Source of the DNA: a virus
Length of the DNA stretch: 20,919 bases
Virus record (IMG/VR): IMGVR_UViG_3300017788_000217
Span: 1 to 20,919 of that record
Direction: 5' to 3' (one strand)
A model generated the notes under the pieces. The model did no database searches, was not told the origin of the DNA, and was given only the letters and a program-made list of their open reading frames with translations. Below are positions 3,646 through 16,877 of this stretch, one piece after another. A program made the translations under genes and the position numbers. The stretch's first letter is position 1; each line of letters begins with the position of its first letter.

Positions 3646-4051
3646 AAATAAACACAATAAACTTCATGGGTCTAAATTAGATAGATCTGACGAACGGATT
3701 AAGCAGACTCAGGAGGTTTTTACTCCTCCTGAGTTGATTGATAAAATGATTGCTGAGATACCAGAAGAAGTTCTTAGGAATCCAAATTCTACTTTTATTG
3801 ATAACTGTGCTGGAGATGGCAACTTCTTAATTCAACTACTTAAAGCTCTTAGGAAGTATCATTCAGAGCAACATATTGTCGATAATATGTTATATGCTGT
3901 GGAGTTGATGGAAGACAATCATAAAGAGTTATGTCGTAGACTTGATGTTCCAACAGATCACCCGCATTATGTGTGCTATAATGCCCTTGAGTATCATTAT
4001 CGATTTGATGGTACGATGGGTCCAATCACCATTGACCAATTCTTTAACTGA
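3635..4051 (+). CDS. Partial N6-adenine methyltransferase, SAM-binding half only
   Basis: The 138-residue product shows the N-terminal half of a gamma N6-adenine methyltransferase. QEVFTPPELIDKMI (residues 26-39) is the motif X-like segment, FIDNCAGDGNFL (54-65) is a good SAM-binding motif I, and AVELMEDN is motif II-like. The chain ends where the catalytic NPPY should follow, and the TGA is itself part of the downstream terminator stem. It resembles residues 697-740 of the preceding fusion (QTQEVFTPPELIDKMI against QTQKHIPTNLLDSMI), so it looks like a partial duplicate that kept the better SAM motif. It could be a decaying gene, or a subunit that supplies SAM binding to the fusion protein in trans. 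The ATG at 3635 overlaps the end of the previous gene; no strong ribosome binding site is visible. Confidence 0.8.
   Translation: MSSKNKHNKLHGSKLDRSDERIKQTQEVFTPPELIDKMIAEIPEEVLRNPNSTFIDNCAGDGNFLIQLLKALRKYHSEQHIVDNMLYAVELMEDNHKELCRRLDVPTDHPHYVCYNALEYHYRFDGTMGPITIDQFFN
3707..3734 (+). other. 10-bp perfect hairpin inside the partial methyltransferase gene
   Basis: ACTCAGGAGG at 3707-3716 pairs perfectly with CCTCCTGAGT at 3725-3734 around an 8-base loop. The left arm holds a full AGGAGG Shine-Dalgarno sequence that would be hidden in the stem. No T-run follows, so this is not a simple terminator. It may be chance arising from coding for QTQEVFTPPE. Confidence 0.5.
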
Positions 4052-4081
4052 CCACTCATCAGAGGTTGGTCAGTAATTTTT
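4048..4081 (+). terminator. Rho-independent terminator after the partial methyltransferase
   Basis: CTGACCA at 4048-4054 pairs with TGGTCAG at 4067-4073 (extendable by an outer A-T pair), with further internal pairing of CTC with GAG. It is followed by TAATTTTT. The stop codon of the upstream gene forms part of the stem. The T-run is short and interrupted, so strength is moderate. Confidence 0.72.
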
Positions 4082-4085
4082 GCTG

Positions 4086-4091
4086 TATAAT
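4086..4091 (+). promoter_or_regulatory. -10 element for the SF2 helicase gene
   Basis: A perfect TATAAT preceded by TG lies just after the terminator and 12 bases before the ATG at 4104. No good -35 hexamer sits at the right distance. If this promoter is used, transcription would begin only a few bases before the start codon, giving an almost leaderless message. Confidence 0.5.
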
Positions 4092-4103
4092 ATTCTCATC
4101 GTT

Positions 4104-5342
4104 ATGACACCCATGCAACTCCGTTCTCACCAGTCCGAAGCACTTGCCATTATGGAGCGTATCCTCAAGGGGATGATCGTGATCCCCACTGGCGGGGGTA
4201 AGTCCCTGGTGGCGATCATGGATGCTGTTCGTCAGTTCATGTCTGGCGATAAGACTATCGTGGTCGTTGCACCTAGGTTGATGCTCGCTCGTCAGTTGTC
4301 TGCCGAGTTTGCTGAGCATATTACTAATGCATCGATTATGCATGTTCACTCCAACGCCGATCTTCCTTACTTTACAACGACTAAACCAAATCAAATCTTC
4401 TCCTGGTGCTATCACACTCAAGGTAATAAGTTGATCTTCACTACCTATCAGTCTTTGCATCGCATTCAGGAAGCAAACATTGCTGTAGATACGATTTACT
4501 ATGATGAAGCGCACAATTCAGTTAAAAAAAGCTTTTATCCTTCCGTCAAGTATTTCTCTTCTGCTGCTAACCGCAGTTATTTCTTCACTGCTACTCCTAA
4601 GTATTCTGCCACTGCTTCCAAACCTGGAATGAACGACACTGATGTGTATGGTAGCATTATCTACAATGTTCCTGCTCCACGCCTTGTCAGCAACGGTTCT
4701 ATTCTCCCCCCTAAGATCAACGCCATCAACGTTGGCAGCGTTCGTCTGAAGGGCGAGGAAGCAGCAGAGAGGGACTGTATGACTCTGTTGGACACTATTT
4801 ACAATGAAGACCACATGGAGAAGGTTCTGATTGCTGCTCCTAACACCAAGGTGATGATCCGTATGCTTGCCGAGACTGACTTCATGAAGGAAGTTCAGTC
4901 CATGGGATATGATCTCCTTTGGATCACCAGCAAGCATGGTGCATTCTTGAATGATCAGAAGATTACTCGTGAGCACTTCTTCCAACTCATCAAAGAGTTT
5001 GGTGCTGACCCTGGCAAAAAGTTTATTATTCTACACTATTCTATTCTGAGTGAAGGTATCTCTGTCCCTGGTTTGACTTCTCTGGTGCTTATGCGTCAGA
5101 TGAACGTCATTGAGATGTGTCAGTCTGTTGGTCGTGTTATTCGTCTTCATCTTGATGACGTAAAGCGTATTCAACAAGGCACTCTTACTCCTGGTAAACT
5201 CCAGGATTACACTAAGTCCTTTGGTCTTGTTCATGTTCCTGTTTACAGCAACGTAGGTATTGCCACGGTCAAGCGTCTACAAAACGTTGTGGACACCGTG
5301 TTTGTTGAAGGTCAACCTGCTATTGCTACTATTAAACGATGA
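4104..5342 (+). CDS. SF2 DEAH-type helicase (UvsW-like in organisation)
   Basis: This is a complete superfamily 2 helicase of 412 residues from the ATG at 4104. Motifs are LRSHQSEAL (Q-motif region), PTGGGKS Walker A at 28-34, DEAH at 134-137, FTATP motif III, LSEGISVPG (motif V region) and QSVGRVIRLH motif VI. The closest functional analogy in T4-like phages is UvsW, which remodels branched DNA and R-loops, but the protein is shorter and lacks an obvious N-terminal extra domain, so I do not assign the symbol. A TTG at 4080 in the same frame is possible but would lie inside the terminator and promoter region. An ATG at 4113 is another candidate; no Shine-Dalgarno sequence distinguishes them. 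G+C is visibly higher than in neighbouring genes, with many C- and G-ending codons. The stop overlaps the next gene (ATGA). Confidence 0.9.
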   Translation: MTPMQLRSHQSEALAIMERILKGMIVIPTGGGKSLVAIMDAVRQFMSGDKTIVVVAPRLMLARQLSAEFAEHITNASIMHVHSNADLPYFTTTKPNQIFSWCYHTQGNKLIFTTYQSLHRIQEANIAVDTIYYDEAHNSVKKSFYPSVKYFSSAANRSYFFTATPKYSATASKPGMNDTDVYGSIIYNVPAPRLVSNGSILPPKINAINVGSVRLKGEEAAERDCMTLLDTIYNEDHMEKVLIAAPNTKVMIRMLAETDFMKEVQSMGYDLLWITSKHGAFLNDQKITREHFFQLIKEFGADPGKKFIILHYSILSEGISVPGLTSLVLMRQMNVIEMCQSVGRVIRLHLDDVKRIQQGTLTPGKLQDYTKSFGLVHVPVYSNVGIATVKRLQNVVDTVFVEGQPAIATIKR

Positions 5343-5703: not shown

Positions 5704-5924
5704 AAATGGAACCAATCTCAGACCCAACTGCTCTAGTTAAAATTACAGTTGACAAAGAAGGACTCAAGACGATGATTCAAGCTGCTATCTGTGCGATCAG
5801 ATATGCTGAAGATTGGAACTTTGGGGATGAATATGATATGGCAGTAACTCCATATCATGATATGAGAGATCGTCTAATTGAAAAATATAAAGAGGTTTAT
5901 GCTGATGAAAACTTCACACTTTGA
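5700..5924 (+). CDS. Small acidic unknown protein, 74 residues
   Basis: The start at 5700 overlaps the previous stop, and the TGA at 5922-5924 overlaps the ATG of the following oxygenase. The product has an LVKITVDKEGLKTMIQAAI segment and an acidic, helical C-terminal half (DMRDRLIEKYKEVYADE). No catalytic motif or transmembrane segment is seen. It is translationally coupled to the oxygenase gene. Function unknown. Confidence 0.78.
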   Translation: MKMEPISDPTALVKITVDKEGLKTMIQAAICAIRYAEDWNFGDEYDMAVTPYHDMRDRLIEKYKEVYADENFTL

Positions 5925-6412
5925 TGAAGATGAATGAATTTTTAGTGGAAGATGAGGTAAGTAATTACTTTAATATTCTACTTGAGTTTGTTTGTAATTA
6001 TCCAAAAGTGTTTAAGGATGAAAGGCAAAGTTCTTTAAGTGGAAATTGTTTTTATACTTTAAATCTTTTGAATTATATTGATTCTGAAATCTTTTATAAC
6101 TATATTGATAAACTTCGTTTGTTATGTGAGGATTTTTTAAATAGACAATTAAAGTATTTTTATGTTCATATGATTAATTATGAAAATGGTGGTAGAATGA
6201 ACGTGCATAAACATGACCACAATGAAGATTATAGTTTTATACTTTACTTGAATTCTTGTAATGATGGAGAAACTATCCTTCATACAACTGAAGGTGAATA
6301 TAAAGTTACTCCTGAAAAAAATAAAGTATTACTATTTCCTTCAAACATACCACATTCAGCAGCATACTCTAAATATAAAAGAGTTCTTGTTGGTGGATTA
6401 AGAATTAACTAA
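5924..6412 (+). CDS. 2-oxoglutarate/Fe(II)-dependent oxygenase-like protein
   Basis: The C-terminal half has the double-stranded beta-helix pattern of 2OG/Fe(II) oxygenases: NVHKHDHNEDYSFILYLN at residues 93-110 (candidate iron ligands in H95-x-H97-D98), a distal histidine in SNIPHSA (H144), and an arginine at 153 (KRVLVGG) that could bind 2-oxoglutarate. It would hydroxylate or otherwise oxidise an unknown substrate using O2. The proximal motif is HxHD rather than textbook HxD, so the exact triad is uncertain. The first ATG after the upstream stop (5924, TGATG) is chosen; a second ATG at 5930 and an in-frame TTG at 5921 are possible. The product is 162 residues, short for the family. It heads a run leading to a radical SAM gene. 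Confidence 0.75.
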   Translation: MKMNEFLVEDEVSNYFNILLEFVCNYPKVFKDERQSSLSGNCFYTLNLLNYIDSEIFYNYIDKLRLLCEDFLNRQLKYFYVHMINYENGGRMNVHKHDHNEDYSFILYLNSCNDGETILHTTEGEYKVTPEKNKVLLFPSNIPHSAAYSKYKRVLVGGLRIN

Positions 6413-6416
6413 AAAT

Positions 6417-6593
6417 ATGGAAAAACAACAAAAAAGACGCGATGCATTTAATCTTTTTTATGAAAGCGTCTTAAAACCAGATCATGAGTTGCGTGAAGTT
6501 GCTCATGAGCAACAGTGTTATCATGAATTACTGGAGTGGAGGCAAGAAATACTTACATATTTGGATAAACGAAGAATAGAAGAATTTAATTGA
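6417..6593 (+). CDS. Small charged unknown protein, 58 residues
   Basis: An ATG at 6417, four bases after the oxygenase stop, opens a 58-codon frame ending one base before the radical SAM start at 6595. The product (MEKQQKRRDAFNLFYE at the N-terminus, ending YLDKRRIEEFN) is highly charged and predicted mostly helical, with one Cys. It has no leader-peptide features. Its position directly before a radical SAM gene makes a peptide substrate or partner thinkable, but nothing in the sequence shows that. Confidence 0.72.
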   Translation: MEKQQKRRDAFNLFYESVLKPDHELREVAHEQQCYHELLEWRQEILTYLDKRRIEEFN

Positions 6594-6594
6594 T

Positions 6595-7413
6595 ATGTTA
6601 AAAGTACCTCACGAGATACAATTACATGTTACTCACTCTTGCAATTTAACTTGTGAGGGATGCACTCATTATATGAATCAAGGGCACTCTGGTTCTGTGT
6701 CTCTTGAACAAGCATCTGAATGGATGGAGAAATGGGGCAAAAGAATCATTCCTCAAAGATTTACTTTGATGGGAGGAGAACCTGCTTTACATCCAGACTT
6801 AACCAAATTTGTGTATTTGGCAAGGGAGAAATGGCCAAATTCATATCTTGATTTAATTTCTAATGGATTTTATTTACATAAACATCCAGATCTTTGGGAG
6901 GCATTAAAAAAAACAAGAACAACTTTGGGTGTATCCGTTCATTCTGATGGTGATCCAGAATATAGGAAAAAGTTTGAACCAGTTTACAACTTGATGAAGG
7001 AATGGATTGCAAAGGGCGCACCTGTTGAGATGCGTCCATCCATTATTCACTGGATTCGTCAATATAAAGGATTTGGTGATAAGATGGAACCCTTTGAAGA
7101 TAATAATCCAAAATTGAGTTGGAAGTATTGTGTATCAAAGTTGTGTGTTCAACTACATGAAGGAAAACTTTGGAAGTGTCCTGCCCTGGCATATCTTCCA
7201 ATGCAGGCAAGTAAATACAACTTATCTGAAAAGTGGGATCCATATCTTAAATATGTGCCATTAGATTATGATTGCACGGATGAAGAACTAAAAGACTTTT
7301 TTACTCGCAAAGAAGAATCTTTCTGCTCCATGTGTCCTGCAAAAGAGGAGTATTTTATTCCTAAGAATCCACTCCTACCAGTAAGTTATTGGAAAAAATT
7401 ATATGACACTTGA
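6595..7413 (+). CDS. Radical SAM enzyme with C-terminal cysteine cluster (copy 1)
   Basis: The 272-residue product carries the radical SAM signature CNLTCEGC (C16, C20, C23), which binds a 4Fe-4S cluster that splits SAM, and the SAM-binding motif GGEP at 60-63. The C-terminal part has C179, C184, C195, C227 and a CSMC pair (C244, C247), suggesting an auxiliary cluster of the Twitch/SPASM kind. Five of these are kept in the paralogue at 10502-11353. The HVTHSCNL and MGGEPALHPDL segments are typical of peptide- or small-molecule-modifying members. Its last codons overlap the next gene by 11 bases, in the same position as in the paralogue. Substrate unknown. Confidence 0.92.
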   Translation: MLKVPHEIQLHVTHSCNLTCEGCTHYMNQGHSGSVSLEQASEWMEKWGKRIIPQRFTLMGGEPALHPDLTKFVYLAREKWPNSYLDLISNGFYLHKHPDLWEALKKTRTTLGVSVHSDGDPEYRKKFEPVYNLMKEWIAKGAPVEMRPSIIHWIRQYKGFGDKMEPFEDNNPKLSWKYCVSKLCVQLHEGKLWKCPALAYLPMQASKYNLSEKWDPYLKYVPLDYDCTDEELKDFFTRKEESFCSMCPAKEEYFIPKNPLLPVSYWKKLYDT

Positions 7414-8056
7414 TATTGGTCCAGTTTACCCAGAAGATCCTAGAAATGTAGAGTACTTTGATTTCTGTGGTAATAAAATCTATAGAGCTTACAATCTTCT
7501 GAGTATATATGATATGAGAAATCTCTTAGAAGAGATTGATAATGAATTGGAAGTTTGTGAGGATAAATGGGATTTATCTGTTGAGGCAACTAATAAATTG
7601 TCTCAACGTAAGTTGTGGTATAAGAAAAGTTGGACAAACTTTTTTAAATTAGTTAAAAAACATCTTTATAATTACTCAGAAATTACTAATGACCCAAAAG
7701 TAAAAGAGTATAAGGTACAATCATATTGGGCAAAACGTATGAGAGGAACGACAGATGAAAATTATGGCAATGAACTTTATATAAACTATGGAAACAGTCA
7801 TAGTCATGATAATTTTGATCTTGGTATGATTTATTATCTCAAAAATCCATCCAGAATATATGGGACTTTGATTGAAAATGAAGATAGAGAAATCATTATC
7901 CCAGGAGATGAGAATTCTTTATTGATTCATCATTCTCATATTAACCATCAACCAGTTATGCCACCACCAGTTGTGGCAAAAGAATATTATAGGTGTGTAA
8001 TAGTGGTTGATTTTATGCATCCATCAAAGGTAGATTACTATGAAGGCAAAAGATAG
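7403..8056 (+). CDS. Putative 2OG/Fe(II) oxygenase-like protein
   Basis: The 217-residue product has a C-terminal segment like the core of 2OG/Fe(II) oxygenases: GNSHSHDNFDLGMIYYL (H133-x-H135-D136), a histidine-rich LIHHSHINHQP near 175-184 that could give the distal ligand, and YYRCVIVVDF with R197 as a candidate 2-oxoglutarate contact. The HxHD pattern matches the gene at 5924, so the two probably belong to the same subgroup. The N-terminal 120 residues are helical and unfamiliar. The ATG lies within the last codons of the radical SAM gene, implying coupled translation and perhaps a shared substrate. The oxygenase call is weaker than for the 9954 and 18141 genes. Confidence 0.6.
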   Translation: MTLDIGPVYPEDPRNVEYFDFCGNKIYRAYNLLSIYDMRNLLEEIDNELEVCEDKWDLSVEATNKLSQRKLWYKKSWTNFFKLVKKHLYNYSEITNDPKVKEYKVQSYWAKRMRGTTDENYGNELYINYGNSHSHDNFDLGMIYYLKNPSRIYGTLIENEDREIIIPGDENSLLIHHSHINHQPVMPPPVVAKEYYRCVIVVDFMHPSKVDYYEGKR

Positions 8057-8273
8057 AATTAAATACGCAACCATAACTCAAAAGATTAATAAAAAACAAA
8101 TATCAGAGTTAACAGAAGAAGAGTATAACTGGTTGAAGTATCACCCAGATTTAATTCCTGAAATTAGAAGACATAAACAAAAAACTGACATTATGAATTG
8201 TACTGTTGGTAATAAGAATACCATTGAAGAAATTTTGTTTGATCTGGACTTGTCAGACAGGATGTATCGGTGA
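8040..8273 (+). CDS. Small basic unknown protein, 77 residues
   Basis: The ATG at 8040 overlaps the upstream stop by 17 bases and is preceded by a weak AAGG. The product begins MKAKDRIKYATITQKINKK, is lysine-rich at the N-terminus, and has an acidic C-terminal helix ending in DLDLSDRMYR. It contains a segment LTEEEYNWLKYHPDLIPEIR. No domain recognised. It sits immediately before the RNA ligase gene, separated by three bases. Confidence 0.75.
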   Translation: MKAKDRIKYATITQKINKKQISELTEEEYNWLKYHPDLIPEIRRHKQKTDIMNCTVGNKNTIEEILFDLDLSDRMYR

Positions 8274-8276
8274 TAT

Positions 8277-9017
8277 ATGGAATATTCATTTCCCATAATT
8301 TATAATATCTCTCAAATACTTAAAGAACTTAAAAAAGAAGACTATAATATTATTAATCATGATCAATTTTGTGTGGTTAATTCAAACAGTAATGAATCAT
8401 TTTTATTGAGAGAAATACGAGGGTTGGTATTTGGTCTTGATGGAAAAATCATCGCTAGACCATATCATCAAGCATTTTCTTTAGATCAAAGCGAAGAGAC
8501 TAATTTTGATAAAATCGTAAAAAAACTTAAGAACCTCAACGTATTTTTGGAAAAGCTTGATGGGACAATGATCTACCCAGTTCCAACAGGATATGGATAT
8601 AGGCTTACAACAAGGTATGGCATTAACCCAGTATCTTTTAATGCAGAGGTTTTTATATCAAGTAAAACATATTATAATGAATTTATTAAAATATGTTTGG
8701 CAAAAAATTGTACTCCTATTTTTGAATGGTGTTCCCCAAGAGATAAAATTGTGGTAGAATATCCAGAAGAAAACTTAGTTTTAACTGGACTGCGTAATAT
8801 CAAAACGGGAGTATATTGTAAATATATGTTCCTTCGTAAACTTGCAGTTAATTTAAAAATTCCTGTGGTAAATAAAATGTGTGTCAACTACTACGATATT
8901 GCTCAATATATTGATGATATAAAGAACGAACCTGAGAAAGAAGGAGTAGTTGTTAAGTTTGATAGTGGACACATGTTCTATATTAAATCAGAAGAATACT
9001 TACGCAAAAAAAGTTAA
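8277..9017 (+). CDS. T4 Rnl1-type RNA ligase lacking the C-terminal domain
   Basis: ATP-dependent RNA ligase motifs are present in order: motif I EKLDGTM with the AMP-accepting K93, a motif III-like PIFEWCSPRDKIVVEY, motif IV EGVVVKF and motif V FYIKSEEYL. The upstream stretch IRGLVFGLDGKIIARPYHQAFSL matches the N-terminal region of T4 RNA ligase 1. T4 Rnl1 is 374 residues and has a C-terminal domain for tRNA recognition; this 246-residue protein stops right after motif V, so it is a bare nucleotidyltransferase. Expected role: joining 3'-OH and 5'-phosphate RNA ends, such as tRNA broken by a host anticodon nuclease. A 3'-phosphatase gene follows two genes downstream, supporting RNA repair. 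Confidence 0.9.
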   Translation: MEYSFPIIYNISQILKELKKEDYNIINHDQFCVVNSNSNESFLLREIRGLVFGLDGKIIARPYHQAFSLDQSEETNFDKIVKKLKNLNVFLEKLDGTMIYPVPTGYGYRLTTRYGINPVSFNAEVFISSKTYYNEFIKICLAKNCTPIFEWCSPRDKIVVEYPEENLVLTGLRNIKTGVYCKYMFLRKLAVNLKIPVVNKMCVNYYDIAQYIDDIKNEPEKEGVVVKFDSGHMFYIKSEEYLRKKS

Positions 9018-9022
9018 CTTCT

Positions 9023-9499
9023 ATGGAACATTTAAAAATAAGACCAAACCAAACCATCCTTGTTCTCAACTCAAGCTATGAACCAATTAATTTTACTAAT
9101 TGGAAAAGAGCAGTGGTTTTGGTTTTAAAAGAAAAGGTCCAGGTAATATCTGAAAGAGTTATTAGACTGCTAAATTACATCAAAGTTCCAGTCAATTATG
9201 CTGCAAGATGTAAACCCTCTAGATCAATGATTTATAAGAGAGACCGCAACACATGTCAATATTGTGAATCCACAACCAGATTAACTATAGATCATATTCT
9301 CCCTCGTAGTAGGGGTGGGGAAGACTCTTGGGAAAACCTAGTGGTTGCATGTTCTTCTTGTAATACTAAAAAAGGAAATAACCTATTAGAACATACCAAT
9401 ATGAGATTGATTCGTCAACCAAGATCTCCTTGGAATAAAGTTGCTTTTGATCTTGCTAATTGTAATGTCCCCGAATGGAGGGAGTATTCGTATGAATAA
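9023..9499 (+). CDS. HNH endonuclease with zinc-binding cysteines
   Basis: The C-terminal half holds a standard HNH nuclease: two CxxC pairs (C78/C81 and C110/C113) for structural zinc, the catalytic DH at D90-H91, and N105 within WENLVVACSSCNTKKG. The N-terminal segment LVLNSSYEPINFTNWKRAVVLVLKEK is the usual lead-in of a widespread bacterial and phage HNH subgroup. The 158-residue length is normal. It may be a free-standing homing-type nuclease inserted between the ligase and phosphatase genes, or a nuclease working with them. Its last 8 bases overlap the phosphatase start. Confidence 0.92.
   Translation: MEHLKIRPNQTILVLNSSYEPINFTNWKRAVVLVLKEKVQVISERVIRLLNYIKVPVNYAARCKPSRSMIYKRDRNTCQYCESTTRLTIDHILPRSRGGEDSWENLVVACSSCNTKKGNNLLEHTNMRLIRQPRSPWNKVAFDLANCNVPEWREYSYE
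9477..9484 (+). promoter_or_regulatory. Strong ribosome binding site for the 3'-phosphatase gene
   Basis: GGAGGGAG lies 7 bases before the ATG at 9492, inside the end of the HNH gene. This site fixes the phosphatase start at 9492 rather than at the upstream in-frame TTG at 9441. Confidence 0.75.
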
Positions 9500-9953
9500 A
9501 CTTCGTAATCCTTGTGCAATTTTTGATTTGGATGGAACACTATGTAATGTAAAACACAGACAACAATTTATTGCAACTCATCCAAGAAATTGGGATGCTT
9601 GGAATGCTGGTATTCTACAAGACAGCATAAATGTTCCTGTAGGTATAGTTTTTAAGTCTTTAAAGACTACGTATTCTAAGTTAAAGTTGATTATCCTCAC
9701 TGGAAGAACAGATAACTATAAGGATGAAACTGAGTTATGGTTGAACAAAAATGCAATAGAATATGATGAATTGTATATGCGAAAAAAGGATGATCGTAGA
9801 GATGATTCTGTTGTAAAGGGGGAACTTGTGGATCTTTTGGAAAAGAAGTATAATATACTATGTGTTTTTGAAGACCGTAAAAGAGTTGTTGATATGTGGG
9901 TGAAACGAGGTATATGGGTATTCGATTGTGGTCAAACAAGAGGAGATTTTTAG
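9492..9953 (+). CDS. HAD-family polynucleotide 3'-phosphatase (Pnkp phosphatase domain alone)
   Basis: The 153-residue product is a HAD phosphatase: FDLDGTL with nucleophile D12 and acid D14, ILTGRTD (motif II, T70), K109 in RRDDSVVKGE, and EDRKRVVDMW with D128. The segments RRDDSVVKGE, DRKRVVDMW and the C-terminal TRGDF closely resemble the 3'-phosphatase domain of T4 polynucleotide kinase (T4 has RKDDVVKEE, DRTQVVEMW and SGDF). The kinase domain is absent. It should remove 3'-phosphate or 2',3'-cyclic phosphate ends to give 3'-OH for the ligase encoded two genes upstream. The next gene starts on the base after its stop codon. Confidence 0.88.
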   Translation: MNKLRNPCAIFDLDGTLCNVKHRQQFIATHPRNWDAWNAGILQDSINVPVGIVFKSLKTTYSKLKLIILTGRTDNYKDETELWLNKNAIEYDELYMRKKDDRRDDSVVKGELVDLLEKKYNILCVFEDRKRVVDMWVKRGIWVFDCGQTRGDF

Positions 9954-10505
9954 ATGTTCTTTCGTAAATTAAATAAACAGTTTTTTATAACCAATTACAA
10001 TAAAACTGGTAGAAAAATAGAGTATGGAATGGACACTCCATATGGATTCGCTGGTATTAAATACTCATACATTAGATCAGAAAATGAAACTGATTTACTT
10101 CAAGTAATACCAGAATCTTACAGAGATAATTGCACACTATCTTTGATGGAATTAAATTATAAGATTCCTCCTCATACTGATAGTAACATTGAGGCAATCA
10201 TCAACTTTTATATTAAAACTGACAGATGTGTAACGCAGTTTTATTATCCAAAAGAAGATGCATCTATCACTAAAATTGCAAATCAAACAGATGGTGCAAT
10301 CTTCCATGAAGGACATCTGAAAAAATCTGTAAGATTTATGGCACACCCTGGAGATGCATATCTCCTTGATGTATCTAAACCACATTCGGTCTATCCTATG
10401 GAAGCAGGACTCCCTGATCGTAAAGCAATTTGTTTACAAATTCTTTATAAGTCTTTTGATGAAGCAGTAGAGATGTTAAAAGAGACGGGATACATTGATG
10501 AATGA
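9954..10505 (+). CDS. 2OG/Fe(II)-dependent oxygenase
   Basis: The 183-residue product shows the full facial triad pattern: H74-T-D76 in IPPHTDSN, the distal H144 in DVSKPHSVYP, and R156 in DRKAICLQI as a candidate 2-oxoglutarate ligand. HPGDAYLLD before the distal histidine is typical of the double-stranded beta-helix fold seen in aspartyl/prolyl hydroxylase-like proteins. Substrate unknown. It begins directly after the phosphatase stop and ends overlapping the second radical SAM gene (ATGA), so oxygenase, radical SAM and carbamoyltransferase are translated as a coupled unit. Confidence 0.85.
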   Translation: MFFRKLNKQFFITNYNKTGRKIEYGMDTPYGFAGIKYSYIRSENETDLLQVIPESYRDNCTLSLMELNYKIPPHTDSNIEAIINFYIKTDRCVTQFYYPKEDASITKIANQTDGAIFHEGHLKKSVRFMAHPGDAYLLDVSKPHSVYPMEAGLPDRKAICLQILYKSFDEAVEMLKETGYIDE

Positions 10506-11353
10506 ATCAGTTTGATACTAAACAGATAGAATTGCATGTCACACATGCATGTAATTTTTCATGTGAGGGGTGTTCTCATTATTCCAATCATGGACATTCT
10601 GGCACACTAGCATTAGAAACTGCAAAAGATTGGCTATATATTTGGGGTCAAAGAGTCAGACCCAAAACATTTGTTATACTTGGTGGAGAACCAACTCTTA
10701 ATAAAGAATTGGTCGATCTTGTATATTTGGTGAGGATGATTTATCCTGATCCATATACTCAAATTGATTTAGTTTCAAATGCTAGTTTTTTGCACTTACA
10801 TCCTAAGTTACCAAAGGCTTTGATTGCGACTCAAACTAACCTTGCAATATCAATTCATAGTACAACACATAAAGATTACGTAAAAAAGTTTAAGACTGGA
10901 TATAATCTTGCTAAACAGTGGAAGCATAATCTTGGAGTTCATGTTGAATTCTGGGATTACACAAATGAACATTGGACTCCACAATATAAGGGATTTGGTT
11001 CACATATAACTCCTTACGAAGATAATAATCCTCGTAAAAGTTGGGAAAACTGTATATCCAAACATGCTATTCAATTGCATGAAAATAAACTTTGGAAGTG
11101 TCCAGCGTTGGCATATTTACCAATGCAATCTAAAAAATATAATCTTAGTGCTAAATGGAAACCATATTTAAAATATACTCCATTAGATGTAAATTGCACA
11201 GATAAACAATTAGAAGAATTTTTAGGTAGAGAAGACGAATCATATTGTTCAATGTGCCCTTCAAACAAGGTTAAAAATTTTGTAAAAGAAGATCCAACAC
11301 TACCAGTAAGTTATTGGGAGAAAAAGTATGATAACATGGGGAATATCATCTAA
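10502..11353 (+). CDS. Radical SAM enzyme with C-terminal cysteine cluster (copy 2)
   Basis: This 283-residue protein is a clear paralogue of the one at 6595-7413. It has CNFSCEGC (C17, C21, C24), LGGEPTL for SAM binding, the shared block KLWKCPALAYLPMQ, and CSMC near the end. Similarity is strongest in the C-terminal third, where the auxiliary-cluster cysteines lie; the counterpart of C184 is replaced by His-Ala. The end, LPVSYWEKKYDN, is almost the same as in copy 1 (LPVSYWKKLYDT). The last 26 bases overlap the carbamoyltransferase gene. Substrate unknown; the coupling suggests a product that is later carbamoylated. Confidence 0.92.
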   Translation: MNQFDTKQIELHVTHACNFSCEGCSHYSNHGHSGTLALETAKDWLYIWGQRVRPKTFVILGGEPTLNKELVDLVYLVRMIYPDPYTQIDLVSNASFLHLHPKLPKALIATQTNLAISIHSTTHKDYVKKFKTGYNLAKQWKHNLGVHVEFWDYTNEHWTPQYKGFGSHITPYEDNNPRKSWENCISKHAIQLHENKLWKCPALAYLPMQSKKYNLSAKWKPYLKYTPLDVNCTDKQLEEFLGREDESYCSMCPSNKVKNFVKEDPTLPVSYWEKKYDNMGNII

Positions 11354-12752
11354 TAGTCATAATGCTGCTATGTCAGTATTTGTAAAAGACGAATTGGTAT
11401 TCGCCAGTGAGAGTGAACGATTTAGTAAAATTAAAAATGATCCATACATATCAGACTCATTGTTAAATTATGCTTTGAGATATGGAAAACCAGAATTAAT
11501 CTGCTGGTATGAGAATCCTCTAAAAAAGAGGATGAGGCAAATTTATGCTGGTCAAGGACCATTTGTTAATAATTTTGAGAGATATTACGAGTGTGAACAT
11601 AAATTTTTTAACCATCATTATACTCATGCTTGTGGTGGTTATTTTACTAGTAAATTTAAACATGCTGCTGTTCTTGTTATTGATGCTATTGGTGAATTTC
11701 AAACACTTACAATTTGGGAAGCATCTGGTAAAGACTTAAAGTTAAAATATGAATTAAAATATCCAAATAGTATTGGTTTATTATATTCTGCAATGACTCA
11801 GCGATGTGGATTAAAACCTAATGAAGAAGAATATATCTTAATGGCATTATCTGCTTTAGGTGATAAGAGCAAGTTAAAAGATGCTATCTTTGAGGATTTT
11901 ATTACTGAAGATTTTACTACAAAAGTAAATTTACATCGTGGATGTAAGAATTGGAGACCAGAAGAATCTAAAGAAGATATTGCAGCTGCTACTCAAGAAG
12001 TATATGAAATACTTTTTAATAATGCATTGAGATTGACTAAAAAATTAGTTCATACTAATAATCTTGTATTGATGGGTGGATGTGCTTTAAATTGTGTTGC
12101 TAATCGACATGCATATAACCACTTTAAGAACGTGTGGATAATGCCAGCACCTGGAGATAGTGGTTCTGCGATTGGTGCAGTGTTAGCACATAAAAAGAAA
12201 CATATCAAATTTACTCCATATCTTGGATATTATTTGCCACATAAGCATACAAATATTCAAATAGTAAATTATTTGTATGAACATAAAGTTTGTGGTCTTG
12301 CGCGAGGTCGAGCAGAATTTGGACCAAGGGCATTGGGAGCAAGAAGTCTTATTGCAGATCCAACGGATCCAAATATAAAAGATAAGGTTAATAAGATAAA
12401 AAATAGAGAATCTTATAGACCATTCTCTCCAGTTGTTCCAATAGAGTTTGCAAATACTTATTTTGATATGCATCATGATTTAGTGGAGAGTCCATTTATG
12501 CAACATGCTGTTAGATGTAAGTATCCAGAAAAGTTTCCTGGGATCGTGCATGTTGATGGGACAAGTCGATTGCAGACTGTTAAAAAAAGTGATGCTCCTA
12601 GACTTTATAATCTTTTATATCAGTGGAAGGAAAAAACTGGACATCCTATGCTATTGAATACTAGTTTAAATATTAAAGGACAACCAATACTAAATGATGA
12701 AATAGATTGTGATACGTGGTCTAGACTTTATAATATTCAAATATTCTCATGA
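11328..12752 (+). CDS. NodU/CmcH/TobZ-family O-carbamoyltransferase
   Basis: The N-terminal Kae1-like domain starts WGISSNSHNAAMSVF and has the metal-binding HHYTHA (H96, H97, H100) and D119 in VLVIDAIGE, then MGGCALN (249-255) and PAPGDSGSAIGA (273-284). The C-terminal domain has the hallmark GRAEFGPRALGARS (327-340) and LLNTSLNIKGQPI. Enzymes of this family use carbamoyl phosphate and ATP to make a carbamoyl-adenylate and move the carbamoyl group to a hydroxyl of a sugar or small molecule. At 474 residues it is shorter than most members (about 550-600), mainly in the middle and at the extreme C-terminus. The ATG at 11328 lies in the end of the radical SAM gene and gives the expected N-terminus. 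It ends with an ATGA overlap to an SGNH hydrolase. Confidence 0.92.
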   Translation: MITWGISSNSHNAAMSVFVKDELVFASESERFSKIKNDPYISDSLLNYALRYGKPELICWYENPLKKRMRQIYAGQGPFVNNFERYYECEHKFFNHHYTHACGGYFTSKFKHAAVLVIDAIGEFQTLTIWEASGKDLKLKYELKYPNSIGLLYSAMTQRCGLKPNEEEYILMALSALGDKSKLKDAIFEDFITEDFTTKVNLHRGCKNWRPEESKEDIAAATQEVYEILFNNALRLTKKLVHTNNLVLMGGCALNCVANRHAYNHFKNVWIMPAPGDSGSAIGAVLAHKKKHIKFTPYLGYYLPHKHTNIQIVNYLYEHKVCGLARGRAEFGPRALGARSLIADPTDPNIKDKVNKIKNRESYRPFSPVVPIEFANTYFDMHHDLVESPFMQHAVRCKYPEKFPGIVHVDGTSRLQTVKKSDAPRLYNLLYQWKEKTGHPMLLNTSLNIKGQPILNDEIDCDTWSRLYNIQIFS

Positions 12753-13522
12753 CATTTTTAAAATTATTTGAAAGATTTGAACAAAAATTATTGCTTCCAA
12801 GTCAAGAATTAATCACTGGTCAACATGAGTGGTTTGATCAAGATACTGAAGAACTTTATAGAACGAATCTAAAAGATCAACCCAAAGACTGGTATTATAG
12901 ATTTAATAAAGTTGAATATAATTTAAATAGAGCTGGATATAGAACTAAAGATTTTAATCAAATAACTTGGTCAAAATCTATTGTAATATTTGGGTGCTCT
13001 CATGTATTTGGTGTAGGAACTTCTGAGGAAGACACAATATCTGGACAACTAGAACGTATGATTGATTGTCCAGTGATTAATTTGGGATCTACGGGGTCTT
13101 CTTCTTTGTTTACATTACATAACTCTATGTTGTTAAATGAATCATATCCAACACCAAAGGCAGTTATTAGTATTTGGACTTCACCATATAGAGTCCCCTA
13201 TTATACTGAGGATCGAGTGATGCATTGTGGAAATTGGAATTATGATAGGTTTAAACTTGGTTACTACTGGAATGTTGATAAGAACAATGCAATTACACAT
13301 TTAAAGTTAAATGTAATGACATTCCGAGAATTTTGGAAAAGTAAAACTAATTATTTTGATCTTAGTTTATTTTATGACACCGCTAAAATATTAGGTTGTG
13401 ATTATGTTAATCAAATTGATTCTGCCCGTGATTTGAGGAAACAAAAATCAGGGTTTTATCTATCTCATCAAGGTAAATTGACCAATAAAATCATAGCAGA
13501 AAGAATATTACATGCATTATAA
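12749..13522 (+). CDS. SGNH/GDSL-like hydrolase (copy 1)
   Basis: The 257-residue product has SGNH block I as IVIFGCSHVFGVG with the candidate nucleophile S84, and NLGSTGSSS (from N111) as the Gly/Asn blocks. The likely catalytic His is H240 in LSHQG. The canonical Asp three residues before it is replaced by Tyr; the nearest Asp is D228, because about nine residues are inserted relative to the paralogue at 14519. SGNH enzymes are esterases, acetylesterases or acyltransferases acting on lipids and glycans. The N-terminal signature WYYRFNKVEYNLNRAGYR is shared with the paralogue. ATGA overlap with the carbamoyltransferase gene suggests a common pathway. Activity is uncertain. Confidence 0.75.
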   Translation: MTFLKLFERFEQKLLLPSQELITGQHEWFDQDTEELYRTNLKDQPKDWYYRFNKVEYNLNRAGYRTKDFNQITWSKSIVIFGCSHVFGVGTSEEDTISGQLERMIDCPVINLGSTGSSSLFTLHNSMLLNESYPTPKAVISIWTSPYRVPYYTEDRVMHCGNWNYDRFKLGYYWNVDKNNAITHLKLNVMTFREFWKSKTNYFDLSLFYDTAKILGCDYVNQIDSARDLRKQKSGFYLSHQGKLTNKIIAERILHAL

Positions 13523-13551
13523 TTGCATCTTGACCAATAATGTGCTATCAT
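13523..13551 (+). promoter_or_regulatory. Extended -10 promoter before the small-gene run
   Basis: TTGCAT (13523-13528), a 17-base spacer, then TATCAT (13546-13551) preceded by TGC form a TGN extended -10 promoter. The -35 matches consensus at four of six bases. The next ATG is at 13574. Confidence 0.6.
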
Positions 13552-13573
13552 ACTGACAGATGCTATAGAGGAC

Positions 13574-13723
13574 ATGGCAAACCGCACATTTTCTGACAAA
13601 AATTCAAATGATTGGAGTTGGGAAGAGACTCCAGAAACAATTGAAGCATTAAAGCAACTTCATAATACTGTAACTCAGGTAAATGAGAATAAAGTTCTGA
13701 AACCAAAGCCTGTAAAGAAATGA
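13574..13723 (+). CDS. Small unknown protein, 49 residues
   Basis: An ATG at 13574, shortly after a promoter-like sequence and an AGAGGA ribosome binding site, opens a 49-codon frame whose TGA overlaps the next ATG. The product begins MANRTFSDKNSNDWSWEE and ends in a lysine/proline tail (LKPKPVKK). No known motif. Its promoter, ribosome binding site and coupled stop make it likely to be real. Confidence 0.75.
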   Translation: MANRTFSDKNSNDWSWEETPETIEALKQLHNTVTQVNENKVLKPKPVKK

Positions 13724-13932
13724 CAGAAGATAAGAAGTTGATTGATGATTGCTTTTACGTTGACTTAAAAAAATATGGACTCTGGTATTCAACAAACAAA
13801 GAAGGTAACGGACTTATCACGGCTCTCACTGAAGAGTCGTGTATCGAAGCGACCCGTTTTTATCTTAAAGGACGGCAGGAAGGTTGGCCTAAAACCAAAA
13901 CCTATGAAGGTAATGTAGGTGGAAAATTCTAA
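13720..13932 (+). CDS. Small unknown protein, 70 residues
   Basis: The gene starts in an ATGA overlap with the previous stop. The product (MTEDKKLIDDCFYVDL at the start, ending TYEGNVGGKF) contains GLWYSTNKEGNGLITALTEESCIEATRFYLKGRQEGW. This looks like a small alpha/beta fold, but I recognise no family. Its final bases overlap a GTG-started frame. Confidence 0.8.
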   Translation: MTEDKKLIDDCFYVDLKKYGLWYSTNKEGNGLITALTEESCIEATRFYLKGRQEGWPKTKTYEGNVGGKF

Positions 13933-14086
13933 AGAATATCCATATCATGAATTAGACCCAACAACTCCTTGGTATGAGTGGTTGATGTATTGTGAGATAT
14001 GTCATCAGTTAAACGTTGTTGGGCAACCATCTTTAGGTAGATTCGCTGCATATAGGCGTTATTTAAAATCGGTAGGTGTTTTATGA
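13919..14086 (+). CDS. Small unknown protein with GTG start, 55 residues
   Basis: A GTG at 13919, with GAAGG about 8 bases upstream, opens a 55-codon frame that fills the gap between two accepted genes and ends in a TGA overlapping the next ATG. The product has PTTPWYEWLMYCEICHQLN with a CxxC pair, then RFAAYRRYLKSVGVL. An internal ATG would remove most of the protein. The GTG start is inferred from gap filling and the ribosome binding site. Confidence 0.6.
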   Translation: MENSKEYPYHELDPTTPWYEWLMYCEICHQLNVVGQPSLGRFAAYRRYLKSVGVL

Positions 14087-14349
14087 TGATTAAAAAATTT
14101 GTTGACTGGTTTTTTGCATCAAACCAAGAGAAAAAGGTGATTGTAGATTGTGCTGACAACTTTGTTGGAAGTAAATTTAATCTGCTTGATTTGATTCAAT
14201 CTTTGGAAACAAGATTGGAAAGACTTGAAAGGGAGAACATAGAGACAACAAATGCACTCTATGAGATGGAGAACAGACTTCAAGCACAAATCGATGCCCA
14301 TTGCCCACCAATATATAATATGAATGATTATTCTTTGGGAGACAAGTAA
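14083..14349 (+). CDS. Coiled-coil unknown protein, 88 residues
   Basis: The ATG at 14083 overlaps the preceding stop (a second ATG follows at 14086), and the TAA overlaps the next ATG (TAATG). The product starts with an aromatic stretch, KKFVDWFFAS. Residues about 35-70 form a likely coiled coil (LIQSLETRLERLERENIETTNALYEMENRLQAQ). The C-terminus is polar. It may oligomerise or bind a partner; no function can be assigned. Confidence 0.8.
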   Translation: MMIKKFVDWFFASNQEKKVIVDCADNFVGSKFNLLDLIQSLETRLERLERENIETTNALYEMENRLQAQIDAHCPPIYNMNDYSLGDK

Positions 14350-14519
14350 TGTACGAACTTGATGATTTTGAAAAAGCATTGGCACATTTTGGGACAAGAG
14401 TAGATATTATTTGTGCTCTTGAAATGGGTGGAAAGATTGATTCACAATCTGCATATAAAGAAATTAAGGCAGAATTAAAAGAACTTAAAAGAGCAAAAAA
14501 GCAATACGGTAAAGAATAG
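14349..14519 (+). CDS. Small helical unknown protein, 56 residues
   Basis: The ATG at 14349 shares its first base with the previous TAA, and its TAG at 14517-14519 shares a base with the GTG of the following gene. The product (MYELDDFEKALAHFGTRVDI, then AYKEIKAELKELKRAKKQYGKE) is helical with a basic C-terminus. No motif identified. Its exact fit between neighbours supports it. Confidence 0.78.
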   Translation: MYELDDFEKALAHFGTRVDIICALEMGGKIDSQSAYKEIKAELKELKRAKKQYGKE

Positions 14520-15295
14520 TGAAGGTTAATCCCAATATCATAAGATCTATCAATTCTTCTGATTTTATTCCTCTTCCAAACATAACAGTTCAAAATTTTG
14601 AACAACTCAAATGGAAAGGTGATGATATATCTGGATCTTGGGATTTTTTTGGATCAGATGATTATAATAATTATCAAAATAATTTAAAAATACAAACCCC
14701 AAACTGGTATTATAGGCATAATCATATAAAATATACTCTTAATTCACATGGGTATAGATCAAAAGAATTCAAAGATATTAATTGGAAAGATTCTATAGTT
14801 ATTTTTGGTTGCTCGTATATCTTTGGGACTGGTGTGGATGATTCACATACAATACCTGCATTCTTAGAAAAACTTTGTAAAACATCTGTAATTAATTTGG
14901 GAATGGGTGGGTCATCCATACAATTTGCCTTACATAATTCTTTAATGCTTTATAAAAAGTATGGTTCTCCAAAATGTGTCATTTATGGGATGCCAGGTAT
15001 TACAAGATATTTGATGTATCAAAGAAATCATGTAGAATTAAAACTTGATTGTGATAATACTAAACTTGTAGATCATTTGGTTCCTTTTAATCTTGTAAAT
15101 GTTGAGTTAATTAGGAATTTATGGGAAAATAGGAGTCAATATTATGAATTTTCATTATTTCCAACAACATCAAAAATATTAGGATGTGATTTGTTTCATC
15201 CTATCCCCGATGATTATGCCAGGGACATGAGTCATCCTGGTATTGAATCCAACAAATTAATCGCACAAAAGATTTACAACACCTTCAGTTTATGA
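14519..15295 (+). CDS. SGNH/GDSL-like hydrolase (copy 2), GTG start
   Basis: This 258-residue paralogue of the 12749 product has block I as IVIFGCSYIFGTG (candidate nucleophile S99), NLGMGGSS from N126, and an intact DxxH pair at D236-M-S-H239 followed by Pro-Gly. The Asp-His pair and order match the SGNH hydrolase fold, with GCS replacing the GDS of block I. The GTG at 14519 overlaps the upstream stop (TAGTG) and gives a length equal to the paralogue. The shared N-terminal module (WYYRHNHIKYTLNSHGYRSKEF) points to a common origin. The substrate could be an acyl group on a glycan or lipid; it is not visible here. Confidence 0.8.
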   Translation: MKVNPNIIRSINSSDFIPLPNITVQNFEQLKWKGDDISGSWDFFGSDDYNNYQNNLKIQTPNWYYRHNHIKYTLNSHGYRSKEFKDINWKDSIVIFGCSYIFGTGVDDSHTIPAFLEKLCKTSVINLGMGGSSIQFALHNSLMLYKKYGSPKCVIYGMPGITRYLMYQRNHVELKLDCDNTKLVDHLVPFNLVNVELIRNLWENRSQYYEFSLFPTTSKILGCDLFHPIPDDYARDMSHPGIESNKLIAQKIYNTFSL

Positions 15296-15736: not shown

Positions 15737-16300
15737 ATGGCAGCAACATTAACCGCTACTGGTTTAACCTTTGATGACGGAACTTCATTAAATTCAAAGT
15801 ATGGAGTTTTGGCACAAGGAACAGTATCGGTATTTTTTCAATCCTCAGCACCAACTGGATGGACAAAAGTTACCACTCATAATGATAAAGCACTGAGAGT
15901 TGTGTCTGGAACTGGTGGTGATTTTGGATTTGGTGGAGTATCTGGTGCTGGTGGATTGTCATTTAGCACAGTATTTCCAAGTAGCACTTCTCCAGTTAGT
16001 GTTAGTTTTAGTGCCGCAGTTCCTGTAAGTGGAACTGTTGGAGATACAACATTAACAACTTCACAAATACCGAATCATACTCATAACTCTCTTACTGGAG
16101 GAAGTGCATCTGCTGCTAGTGGGGGGTCTAGTTTTTTGGTAAGTGGAACAAATAATACTGGTGGAGTTGTATCTGCTGGGGGAATTGGAGGATCACATAA
16201 TCACCCATTCAGTGGTAATATAAATTTTACTGCAACTGGTAGTGGAACAATTGACCTGAGATTACAGTACATCGACGTTATTCTCTGCTCTTTTAATTAA
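15737..16300 (+). CDS. Tail-fibre/collar-like tip protein (copy 1)
   Basis: The 187-residue product is rich in Gly, Ser and Thr and has the collar-type pattern PTGWTKVTTHNDKALRVVSGTGG at about residues 39-61, an IPNHTH (H114, H116), SHNHPFSG (H154, H156) and the ending LQYIDVILC. Paired HxH motifs near the C-terminus recall metal-binding fibre tips such as T4 gp37 and gp12. It is probably a virion surface protein for host attachment. It is followed after one base by a clear paralogue and preceded by a late-promoter-like element. The start ATG is the first in frame; no strong Shine-Dalgarno sequence is visible. Confidence 0.82.
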   Translation: MAATLTATGLTFDDGTSLNSKYGVLAQGTVSVFFQSSAPTGWTKVTTHNDKALRVVSGTGGDFGFGGVSGAGGLSFSTVFPSSTSPVSVSFSAAVPVSGTVGDTTLTTSQIPNHTHNSLTGGSASAASGGSSFLVSGTNNTGGVVSAGGIGGSHNHPFSGNINFTATGSGTIDLRLQYIDVILCSFN

Positions 16301-16301
16301 T

Positions 16302-16877
16302 ATGGCAAGACTAACTTCTACTGGCATTTTATTTGATATTGCAGATACTACAAATTCTATTAATAGTTTTTATTGGTTGTATCCTGCTGGAACTGTAAAG
16401 GTTTTTTATCAAGCAGCAGCACCAACGGGATGGACTAGACTTTCTACTCAGAATAATAAAGCATTGCGTGTTGTTTCTGGAACAGGTGGTGGATCTGGAG
16501 GAACAACAAATTTTACAACAGTGTTGTCATCAGCAGTTGGTAATTTATCTGTAAGTATCAATAATACAATTCCAGTTGGATTAGCACCTAGCACTACACA
16601 AAATGTTGGTAATACGACGTTGGCATTGTCTCAATTACCAGATCACGTTCATGTGGGATTAACTGGAGGTACAGGAGGTTCTGGTGCTACTCCTTTTAGT
16701 TTTGCTGGAAGTAGACTTATATTTGGTGGTGTTCCTACAAGTGGAATGATACAAAGCACTGGTGGTGGTTCTCATACTCACCCATTTAGTGGATCTGTAA
16801 CCATAAATGAGATAAGAAATTATGGATTGAATTTATCAGTGCAATACATAGACACTATCATTTGCTCATTAAACTAA
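16302..16877 (+). CDS. Tail-fibre/collar-like tip protein (copy 2)
   Basis: This 191-residue paralogue of the preceding gene has PTGWTRLSTQNNKALRVVSGTGG (41-63), QLPDHVH (H115, H117), SHTHPFSG (H158, H160) and the end VQYIDTIICSLN. The first and last segments are conserved while the middle (residues 64-105 and 120-155) differs strongly, as expected for receptor-binding loops under selection. It may form hetero- or homotrimers with copy 1, or the two may recognise different hosts. Confidence 0.82.
   Translation: MARLTSTGILFDIADTTNSINSFYWLYPAGTVKVFYQAAAPTGWTRLSTQNNKALRVVSGTGGGSGGTTNFTTVLSSAVGNLSVSINNTIPVGLAPSTTQNVGNTTLALSQLPDHVHVGLTGGTGGSGATPFSFAGSRLIFGGVPTSGMIQSTGGGSHTHPFSGSVTINEIRNYGLNLSVQYIDTIICSLN

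Follow-up and report, generated by a model that had tools for sequence, protein, structure and literature searches.

An enzyme cassette between tail-fibre genes

We analysed a single IMG/VR virus record of 20,919 bases (IMGVR_UViG_3300017788_000217; the window), which is a piece of a T4-like cyanophage genome. Positions 5,924 to 15,295 of the window hold a cassette of eight genes encoding three 2-oxoglutarate (2OG)/Fe(II)-type oxygenases (OX1–OX3), two radical S-adenosylmethionine (SAM) enzymes (RS1 and RS2), an O-carbamoyltransferase (CTase) and two SGNH proteins (SGNH1 and SGNH2). Its site is the tail-fibre, or host recognition, region of T4-like cyanophage genomes. An initial annotation, made from the letters of the sequence alone, had named these eight genes and assigned them to families; all eight are open reading frames at the starts it gave, and their families or folds and active-site residues agree with its assignments. 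Its gene list was right in what it contained; it omitted an RNA ligase, an HNH nuclease, a PNKP-type phosphatase and one more oxygenase (OX4, the fourth, at 18141), and it overlooked the position of the locus among tail-fibre genes. The eight cassette genes are as follows.

5924..6412, plus strand: OX1, 2OG/Fe(II) oxygenase type (PF13640, E 1e-6)
6595..7413, plus strand: RS1, radical SAM enzyme with twitch-like C-terminal cysteines (PF04055, E 4e-13)
7403..8056, plus strand: OX2, 2OG/Fe(II) oxygenase type (relatives match phrog_81)
9954..10505, plus strand: OX3, 2OG/Fe(II) oxygenase type (predicted fold)
10502..11353, plus strand: RS2, radical SAM enzyme, RS1 paralogue (PF04055, E 5e-10)
11328..12752, plus strand: CTase, O-carbamoyltransferase (PF02543, E 3e-38; PF16861, E 8e-49; phrog_1601)
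12749..13522, plus strand: SGNH1, SGNH-fold hydrolase or acyltransferase (structure model, alignment)
14519..15295, plus strand: SGNH2, SGNH1 paralogue (hhalign, 100% to SGNH1)

The initial annotation had stated that most of the genes are linked by overlapping start and stop codons, and such overlaps are present at RS1–OX2, OX3–RS2, RS2–CTase and CTase–SGNH1. We also found one-base overlaps of OX1 with the small gene preceding it and of orf14349 with SGNH2, and a gap of 197 bases downstream of SGNH1. The description of the locus as having two arms fits these genes: the RS pair (55% identical) and the SGNH pair are each paralogous, with RS1 adjoining OX2 and RS2 adjoining OX3.

Active sites of the oxygenases and radical SAM enzymes

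2OG/Fe(II) oxygenases bind iron through a His-x-Asp/His ... His motif and 2OG through an Arg or Lys. This pattern was matched in OX1 (H97/H99...H144...K152), OX2 (H133/H135...H182...R197) and OX3 (H74, D76, H144 and R156), the motif of OX1 and OX2 being HxH, not HxD. In the alignments, H95, H97, H99, H144 and K152 of OX1 were invariant (18 rows), as were H133, H135, H182 and R197 of OX2 (15 rows). OX3 kept H74 in 14/14 rows and D76, H144 and R156 in at least 90%. OX2 had no Pfam match; seven of its 15 aligned members matched phrog_81, a 2OG oxygenase family (best E 1.2e-5), and the window protein itself did so at E 0.033 only. None of the 14 aligned OX3 members matched Pfam. According to its predicted structure (predicted local distance difference test, pLDDT, 85.8), OX3 has the double-stranded beta-helix fold of 2OG/Fe(II) oxygenases: 49 of the 50 listed best structural alignments were to 2OG or other non-haem iron oxygenases, the best having a Z score of 10.6 and a root-mean-square deviation (rmsd) of 3.3 with 153 residues aligned. 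In plain Foldseek, a cupin sugar isomerase ranked first. Comparison of OX2 and OX3 with the other oxygenase profiles by hhalign gave nothing significant.

Twitch-type radical SAM enzymes carry a CxxxCxxC motif and four further cysteines arranged as C-x(9-15)-G-x4-C ... C-x2-C. In the RS alignment, the CxxxCxxC cysteines (C17, C21 and C24 in RS2 numbers) and C184, C200, C249 and C252 were invariant in 17/17 rows, with N instead of G at the glycine position of the window RS2. Judged from sequence, the cysteines of the auxiliary cluster follow the twitch pattern, as in BtrN, an enzyme that oxidises a cyclitol (PMC9012708). We rejected a viperin-like antiviral role, which was suggested by the best NCBIfam match of RS1; this match reached 47 bits against a cut-off of 180 and covered only the radical SAM core.

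Throughout the cassette, the catalytic residues, whose absence would have spoken against the initial annotation, are kept across aligned relatives, except in the OX3 of one relative (L038; L and G numbers are our labels for loci and phage records).

The carbamoyltransferase and the SGNH proteins

Relatives of the CTase in the PDB include TobZ, GdmN, the novobiocin enzyme and 7xb6. Residues H96, H100, D119 and D277, which we take to be metal/ATP-site residues, and the GPRALG motif were conserved in 34/34 rows. The alignment also bears on the possibility that the oxygenases and the CTase modify bases of phage DNA or RNA, since a phage-type 5-hydroxymethylcytosine (5hmC) carbamoyltransferase is known and three positions are named as diagnostic of it (PMC8670742). 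We mapped the TobZ numbers onto the CTase by inference from motif spacing. At the equivalents of TobZ G421 and R423, the cassette enzymes have G and R in 34/34 rows, whereas the 5hmC enzyme has C and T; at the third position (TobZ W408), they have L, I, V or Y and the 5hmC enzyme has I. By these residues, the CTase is not of the 5hmC type at two of the three diagnostic positions. Methylase and helicase genes do adjoin the cassette, and in L086 a glycosyltransferase (GT) next to a bacterial RS relative has an additional match, below cut-off, to PF20691, the TET-associated glycosyltransferase family. However, the thymidylate-synthase family PF00303 was found in 0/9 phage records, including a probably near-complete one of 246 kb, with a positive control and with most of the records being fragments. 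The absence of the TET/JBP family (PF12851; 0/9 records) counts little because no control gave a match either. On the absence of thymidylate synthase and the diagnostic residues of the CTase, we put aside DNA base modification as the main reading, and we consider nucleic acid hypermodification very improbable. As a separate observation, record G001 has four PF16861 matches, and at its locus L099 additional carbamoyltransferase genes, one of them apparently split in two frames, lie close to a thyX-like gene (named by eye).

SGNH1 and SGNH2 gave only sub-threshold matches to Pfam. The structure model of SGNH1 (pLDDT 88.6) matched SGNH/GDSL structures, and its Ser-Asp-His triad (S84, D228 and H240) was invariant in 24 rows; the clade of the window has an insertion of 8–9 residues between the triad D and H. 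In SGNH2, the residues S99, D236 and H239 were invariant in 8 rows. The top structural match of SGNH1 was CgnD (Z 14.3, rmsd 3.2, 190 aligned; next match 12.7), an enzyme of the ribosomally synthesized and post-translationally modified peptides.

This match introduces the main chemical rival to the sugar-tailoring pathway that we propose below, namely crocagin-like modification of a peptide or protein by 2OG hydroxylation, carbamoylation, SGNH-fold cutting or release and radical SAM peptide chemistry, with a phage peptide or fibre loops as the target. Crocagin biosynthesis uses the dioxygenase CgnC, the hydrolase CgnD, which releases the peptide core, and the carbamoyltransferase CgnI (PMC10070186). 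With CgnD as the nearest structure to SGNH1, and with a dioxygenase and a carbamoyltransferase in the crocagin pathway as well, the target may be a peptide, perhaps one in the fibres whose genes adjoin the cassette. Related radical SAM enzymes of the SPASM type, PqqE and SuiB among them, act on peptides (PMC9012708). The RS relatives, however, keep company with sugar genes, and we recognised no precursor-like gene: the best-placed small gene, orf6417, is conserved along its length with no variable core in the rows seen. The crocagin pathway is not known to include a radical SAM enzyme, which we also count against a peptide target. Among the small genes looked at, neither a crocagin-type precursor nor a CgnB/CgnE-type peptide-binding protein was recognised, although no dedicated search was made. 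Overall, we judge this explanation to be unlikely.

Borders and setting of the cassette

The cassette is flanked on both sides by genes of the tail-fibre region.

2..409, plus strand: C-terminal end of a tail-fibre/spike gene, S74 chaperone domain (PF13884, E 1.6e-15)
484..3645, plus strand: helicase-like and DNA-methylase-like protein, left border (phrog_22930, phrog_3689, phrog_16)
3635..4051, plus strand: N6-methylase-like protein, left border (PF02384, E 2e-4)
4080..5342, plus strand: SF2 DNA helicase, left border (PF04851, phrog_16; 48% to S-SCSM1 helicase 238)
15737..16300, plus strand: col1, short tail-fibre-like protein with HxH motifs, right border (52% to S-SCSM1 ORF244)
16302..16877, plus strand: col2, short tail-fibre-like protein (profile matches to S-SCSM1 ORF245, E 8.6e-38, and ORF244, E 1.1e-36)
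18141..19295, plus strand: OX4, two-part 2OG oxygenase closing the fibre module (PF13640, E 5e-20)

The order of the locus is S74 fibre end, methylase/helicase, OX1, RS1, OX2, OX3, RS2, CTase, SGNH1 and, in some loci, SGNH2, followed by col1, col2, two conserved genes and OX4. Searches with RS1 and RS2 gave 73 IMG/VR loci, which keep this order as far as they reach, except L069 and L071; single genes are absent in some and small genes change place. Several of these loci share one contig, so that locus counts are not contig counts. In the records G001 and G003, genes for head completion, tail tube, baseplate hub, lysozyme, long fibre, S74 fibre end, helicase, cassette and short fibre follow one another, and the long tail-fibre gene upstream of the S74 end resembles S-SCSM1 ORF225. 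The S-SCSM1 homologue of col1 (ORF244) carries the annotation tail fibre (virion protein) and that of col2 the annotation short tail fibre, and OX4 has homologues in S-SCSM1 (ORF248) and S-SCSM2R (ORF301). Photosystem genes (PF00124; two matches each) were found in 4/9 records, which points to cyanobacterial hosts; the other five, the window among them, are shorter fragments. G003 is probably near-complete because its two photosystem genes sit at opposite ends.

The fibre position also bears on the role usually given to such oxygenases. Cyanophage 2OG oxygenases are numerous (S-SCSM1 has 24; PMC9602691) and are often ascribed to host nitrogen metabolism: mainly by draining 2OG, they would steer host nitrogen control, as proposed in PMC3037559 and repeated in PMC9602691. 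For this cassette, we regard such auxiliary metabolism as scarcely credible, as it explains neither the linked radical SAM, CTase and SGNH genes nor the position among fibre genes. Where several oxygenases are linked to radical SAM, carbamoyl and SGNH enzymes and lie among fibre genes, a different role can be proposed and tested, namely chemical tailoring that serves host recognition.

Several further features of the flanks were observed. The left border, made up of the helicase–methylase protein, the separate N6-methylase-like protein and the SF2 helicase (484–5342), is conserved; in PMC3037559, a helicase and an N6A-methylase are listed among the genes present in 14 of the cyanophage genomes of that study. 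The best PHROG matches of OX4 are labelled ferrochelatase, a label that looks wrong because the Pfam domain of OX4 is a 2OG oxygenase. Two 87-base tandem copies, 97% identical, lie within orf17245 (17575–17748) and encode a repeated EEMQKRHEQNI... segment. The short tail fibre of S-SCSM1 (L077, 9539–10804) has long FRQPR/YRVP-like repeats between its HxH motifs, and none were seen in col1 or col2. Promoter-like sites showed no excess over shuffled sequences (58 versus 60.8); terminator-like sites numbered 6 versus 3.8.

Co-conservation of the cassette genes

We searched with OX2 alone, which avoids picking loci by a radical SAM gene, and obtained 51 contigs (best 80 of 116 candidates). Within the fetched stretch, RS1 or RS2 was also present in 50 of these, and RS2, OX3 and SGNH1 were each found in 44 and the CTase in 36, with many loci ending at a contig edge. 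The CTase was missing from 8 of the 44 contigs holding both RS2 and SGNH1, and RS1 from 10 of the 38 holding OX1 and RS2. The families are co-conserved among relatives, a check that the initial annotation had proposed: their order is kept, and membership is partly variable. Because most of these contigs represent one lineage, co-conservation alone proves little, and recurrence outside the lineage is better evidence for a unit than co-conservation within it.

Such recurrence was seen for the CTase and SGNH genes (each family profile used only distinct sequences). Among the best 80 of 567 CTase candidates, an SGNH gene directly follows the CTase in 46 of 50 cassette loci. Of the 30 non-cassette loci in this set, 15 have an SGNH-like gene after the CTase and 1 has it before, 2 are incomplete and 12 have none; 14 of those SGNH-like genes belong to another family, recognised only by a GDSH motif and a weak hhalign match (probability 19%). 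From the SGNH1 side (best 80 of 195 candidates, 79 loci), 39 loci lack the cassette, and other radical SAM families, representatives of which were confirmed by Pfam, occur in 34 of the 39. Weak-scoring RS1 labels near these non-cassette SGNH genes were discarded, as RS was the best match in 0/39 loci once models of the other families were added. Separately, L320, L254, L333 and related loci represent another phage cluster, in which an SGNH gene accompanies three other radical SAM families; among the 39 loci, c0 occurs in 34, c3 in 25, c2 in 22 and the protein c1 in 32.

Variable membership raises the possibility that unrelated accessory genes accumulated in a hypervariable slot, their order kept by descent, with no common pathway. 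The slot does accept other genes in the window itself.

6417..6593, plus strand: orf6417, small protein directly before RS1 (in 41/51 OX2-seeded contigs)
8277..9017, plus strand: RNA ligase, T4 RnlA type, insertion (PF09511, E 7e-20; phrog_562; in 15/51 OX2-seeded contigs)
9023..9499, plus strand: HNH endonuclease, likely mobile insertion (PF01844, E 2e-16)
9489..9953, plus strand: PNKP-type phosphatase, inserted with the RNA ligase (PF25109, E 2.5e-26)

Accretion would account for the ligase, HNH and phosphatase genes inside the cassette in some loci, for the coming and going of RS1, CTase and SGNH2, and for the other cargo, four 2OG oxygenases, in the corresponding slot of S-SCSM1. It does not fit well with the near-constant pairing of OX2 with an RS gene (OX2 without RS in only 1/51 contigs), with the recurring CTase–SGNH adjacency involving differing SGNH types in the CTase set above, or with L212, where RS, CTase and SGNH occur together again in another gene context. 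We therefore regard accretion as unlikely, while giving it appreciable weight. An attempt to trace co-evolution of cassette and fibre by partial correlations over 19 loci (col2–RS2 0.54, col2–SGNH1 0.52, OX3–SGNH1 0.05) had no significance test and kept shared descent, and was not used.

As to the insertions themselves, the window and some of its relatives have the ligase, HNH and phosphatase genes (8277–9953) within the cassette, and other relatives have the HNH gene alone there. The RNA ligase and the PNKP-type phosphatase look like an inserted RNA-repair pair. The cassettes of L043 and L052 contain extra oxygenases, a TalC-like transaldolase (named by eye) and a SET-domain protein (by Pfam in L043, by likeness in L052). 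This protein, of 93 residues in L043 (9027–9308), is present in the cassette of some relatives and suggests a possible protein lysine methylation step.

Sugar genes beside radical SAM relatives

Of the cassette families, the radical SAM enzymes give the best clue to the substrate. In S-SCSM2R, an RS homologue (44% to RS2) lies a few genes behind the OX4 homologue, among genes annotated as glycosyltransferase, AHBA synthase and inosamine amidinotransferase. We confirmed an aminotransferase domain (PF01041) in this set; the annotated amidinotransferase and the tested glycosyltransferases had no Pfam match, and the amidinotransferase name is that of the record. The same type of set, with an RS homologue 42% identical to RS2, lies directly behind the fibre module in L069 and appears again in L208–L211. 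RS, a carbamoyltransferase and SGNH occur together with a GDP-mannose dehydratase in L212, and RS occurs with a GDP-mannose dehydratase, an epimerase and GT11 in L213. Bacterial RS relatives (33–42% identity) adjoin an O-antigen ligase, GT17, GT1 and GT2 in L085 (Desulfovibrionaceae), a UDPG/GDP-mannose dehydrogenase in L082 (Patescibacteria), GT2 in L084 (a Rhodopirellula metagenome-assembled genome, MAG) and GT25/sulfotransferase and GT2 in L086 (Rhodopirellula rubra), where they follow a gene that weakly matches a tape-measure protein. The locus L081, although part of a MAG, belongs to a relative of the window phage. Among the phage records, G003 has GT25 genes and a GT11 gene about 7.5 kb behind OX4.

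These neighbourhoods narrow the initial proposal of a pathway acting on a glycan, nucleotide or peptide. The co-conserved set stands and the substrate shifts towards a glycan, because relatives of RS, and in L212 also of the CTase and SGNH, adjoin sugar-nucleotide and glycosyltransferase genes; DNA is disfavoured, and the set is not fixed.

Proposed function

We infer that the genes form one shared pathway, and propose that this exchangeable cassette in the cyanophage tail-fibre region tailors a sugar, on a host receptor glycan or on the fibre; we give this a probability of about 0.5. The twitch-type RS1 and RS2 would take hydrogen from a sugar ring and so oxidise, epimerise or deoxygenate the sugar, and OX1–OX3 would oxidise further C–H positions. 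The CTase would carbamoylate a hydroxyl, using carbamoyl phosphate and ATP, and the SGNH enzymes would take off acyl groups or transfer them. The pathway would yield a rare sugar on a host surface glycan, which would alter the receptor after infection and act against re-adsorption or competing phages; less certainly, the rare sugar may sit on the fibre itself.

Several observations weigh against sugar tailoring. The RS proteins in glycan contexts are distant from those of the window (33–47%), and no sugar gene was recognised by eye beside the relative in L083 (a Marinimicrobia MAG). We recognised no glycosyltransferase gene within the cassette of the window; in the nine records, GT2 (PF00535) was found in none and GT25 in only two. 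BtrN was absent from the 20 PDB matches of RS at E 0.1, and the best PDB relative, 7wzv (E 3e-11), has a name too vague to use. The OX3 of L038 has lost D76, H144 and R156. To these points are added the CgnD match of SGNH1, the dominance of one lineage among the OX2-seeded contigs and the SGNH1 loci that have other radical SAM families in place of the cassette.

A broader version of sugar tailoring is more tentative: a modular radical-SAM/2OG/carbamoyl/acyl island might make an otherwise unknown carbamoylated, radically modified sugar on the fibre tip or host receptor, serving host range or the exclusion of competing phages, with different phages plugging different chemistries into the slot. 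If sugar tailoring is true, such cassettes would be a source of new sugar-modifying enzymes.

Comparison with known systems

Among the papers listed by literature searches for this enzyme combination, none appeared to describe the set, and megablast of the cassette gave no match. In searches of phage records, 141 matched the CTase, two matched RS2 and two matched OX3; SGNH1 had zero matches in 50,697 phage records.

Individual parts resemble known systems. Like crocagin biosynthesis, the cassette combines a dioxygenase, an SGNH-fold hydrolase, for which CgnD is the nearest fold to SGNH1, and a carbamoyltransferase; unlike it, no peptide precursor or peptide-binding CgnB/CgnE was recognised alongside (no dedicated search). 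As in the 5hmC systems (PMC8670742), a carbamoyltransferase is found in phages, but the cassette CTase differs at two of the three diagnostic positions, and the thymidylate synthase partner was not found in the nine records. S-SCSM2R and L069 share an RS homologue and a 2OG oxygenase in a cassette behind the OX4 homologue, and carry glycosyltransferases, an aminotransferase and an annotated amidinotransferase in place of the CTase and SGNH genes.

The closest setting is the host recognition cluster of T4-like marine phages (pelagimyophages and cyanomyoviruses; PMC7029224), a tail-fibre region with variable cargo for which glycosyltransferases and, in passing, radical SAM cassettes are mentioned. 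The accessible part of that paper names no paired radical SAM/2OG oxygenase/carbamoyltransferase/SGNH set, and the window cassette differs in having no recognised glycosyltransferase. S-SCSM1 (Kyanoviridae; MK867354) has the same borders, with the helicase on the left and the tail fibre, short tail fibre, ORF246, ORF247 and oxygenase ORF248 on the right. Its slot instead holds four 2OG oxygenases (ORFs 240–243), to which OX1–OX3 match with E values of at least 0.056 by profile and 0.035 at best by blastp, and no radical SAM, CTase or SGNH gene is annotated there. A relative of its ORF240 oxygenase, absent from the window, precedes RS1 or OX2 in 35/51 OX2-seeded contigs; therefore, the cargoes of S-SCSM1 and of the cassette overlap. 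With the same borders and other oxygenases in S-SCSM1, the cassette is thus a variant of the cargo known from host recognition clusters. Both the slot and the kinds of enzyme were known before; the combination and its target were not seen described among the papers listed by the searches.

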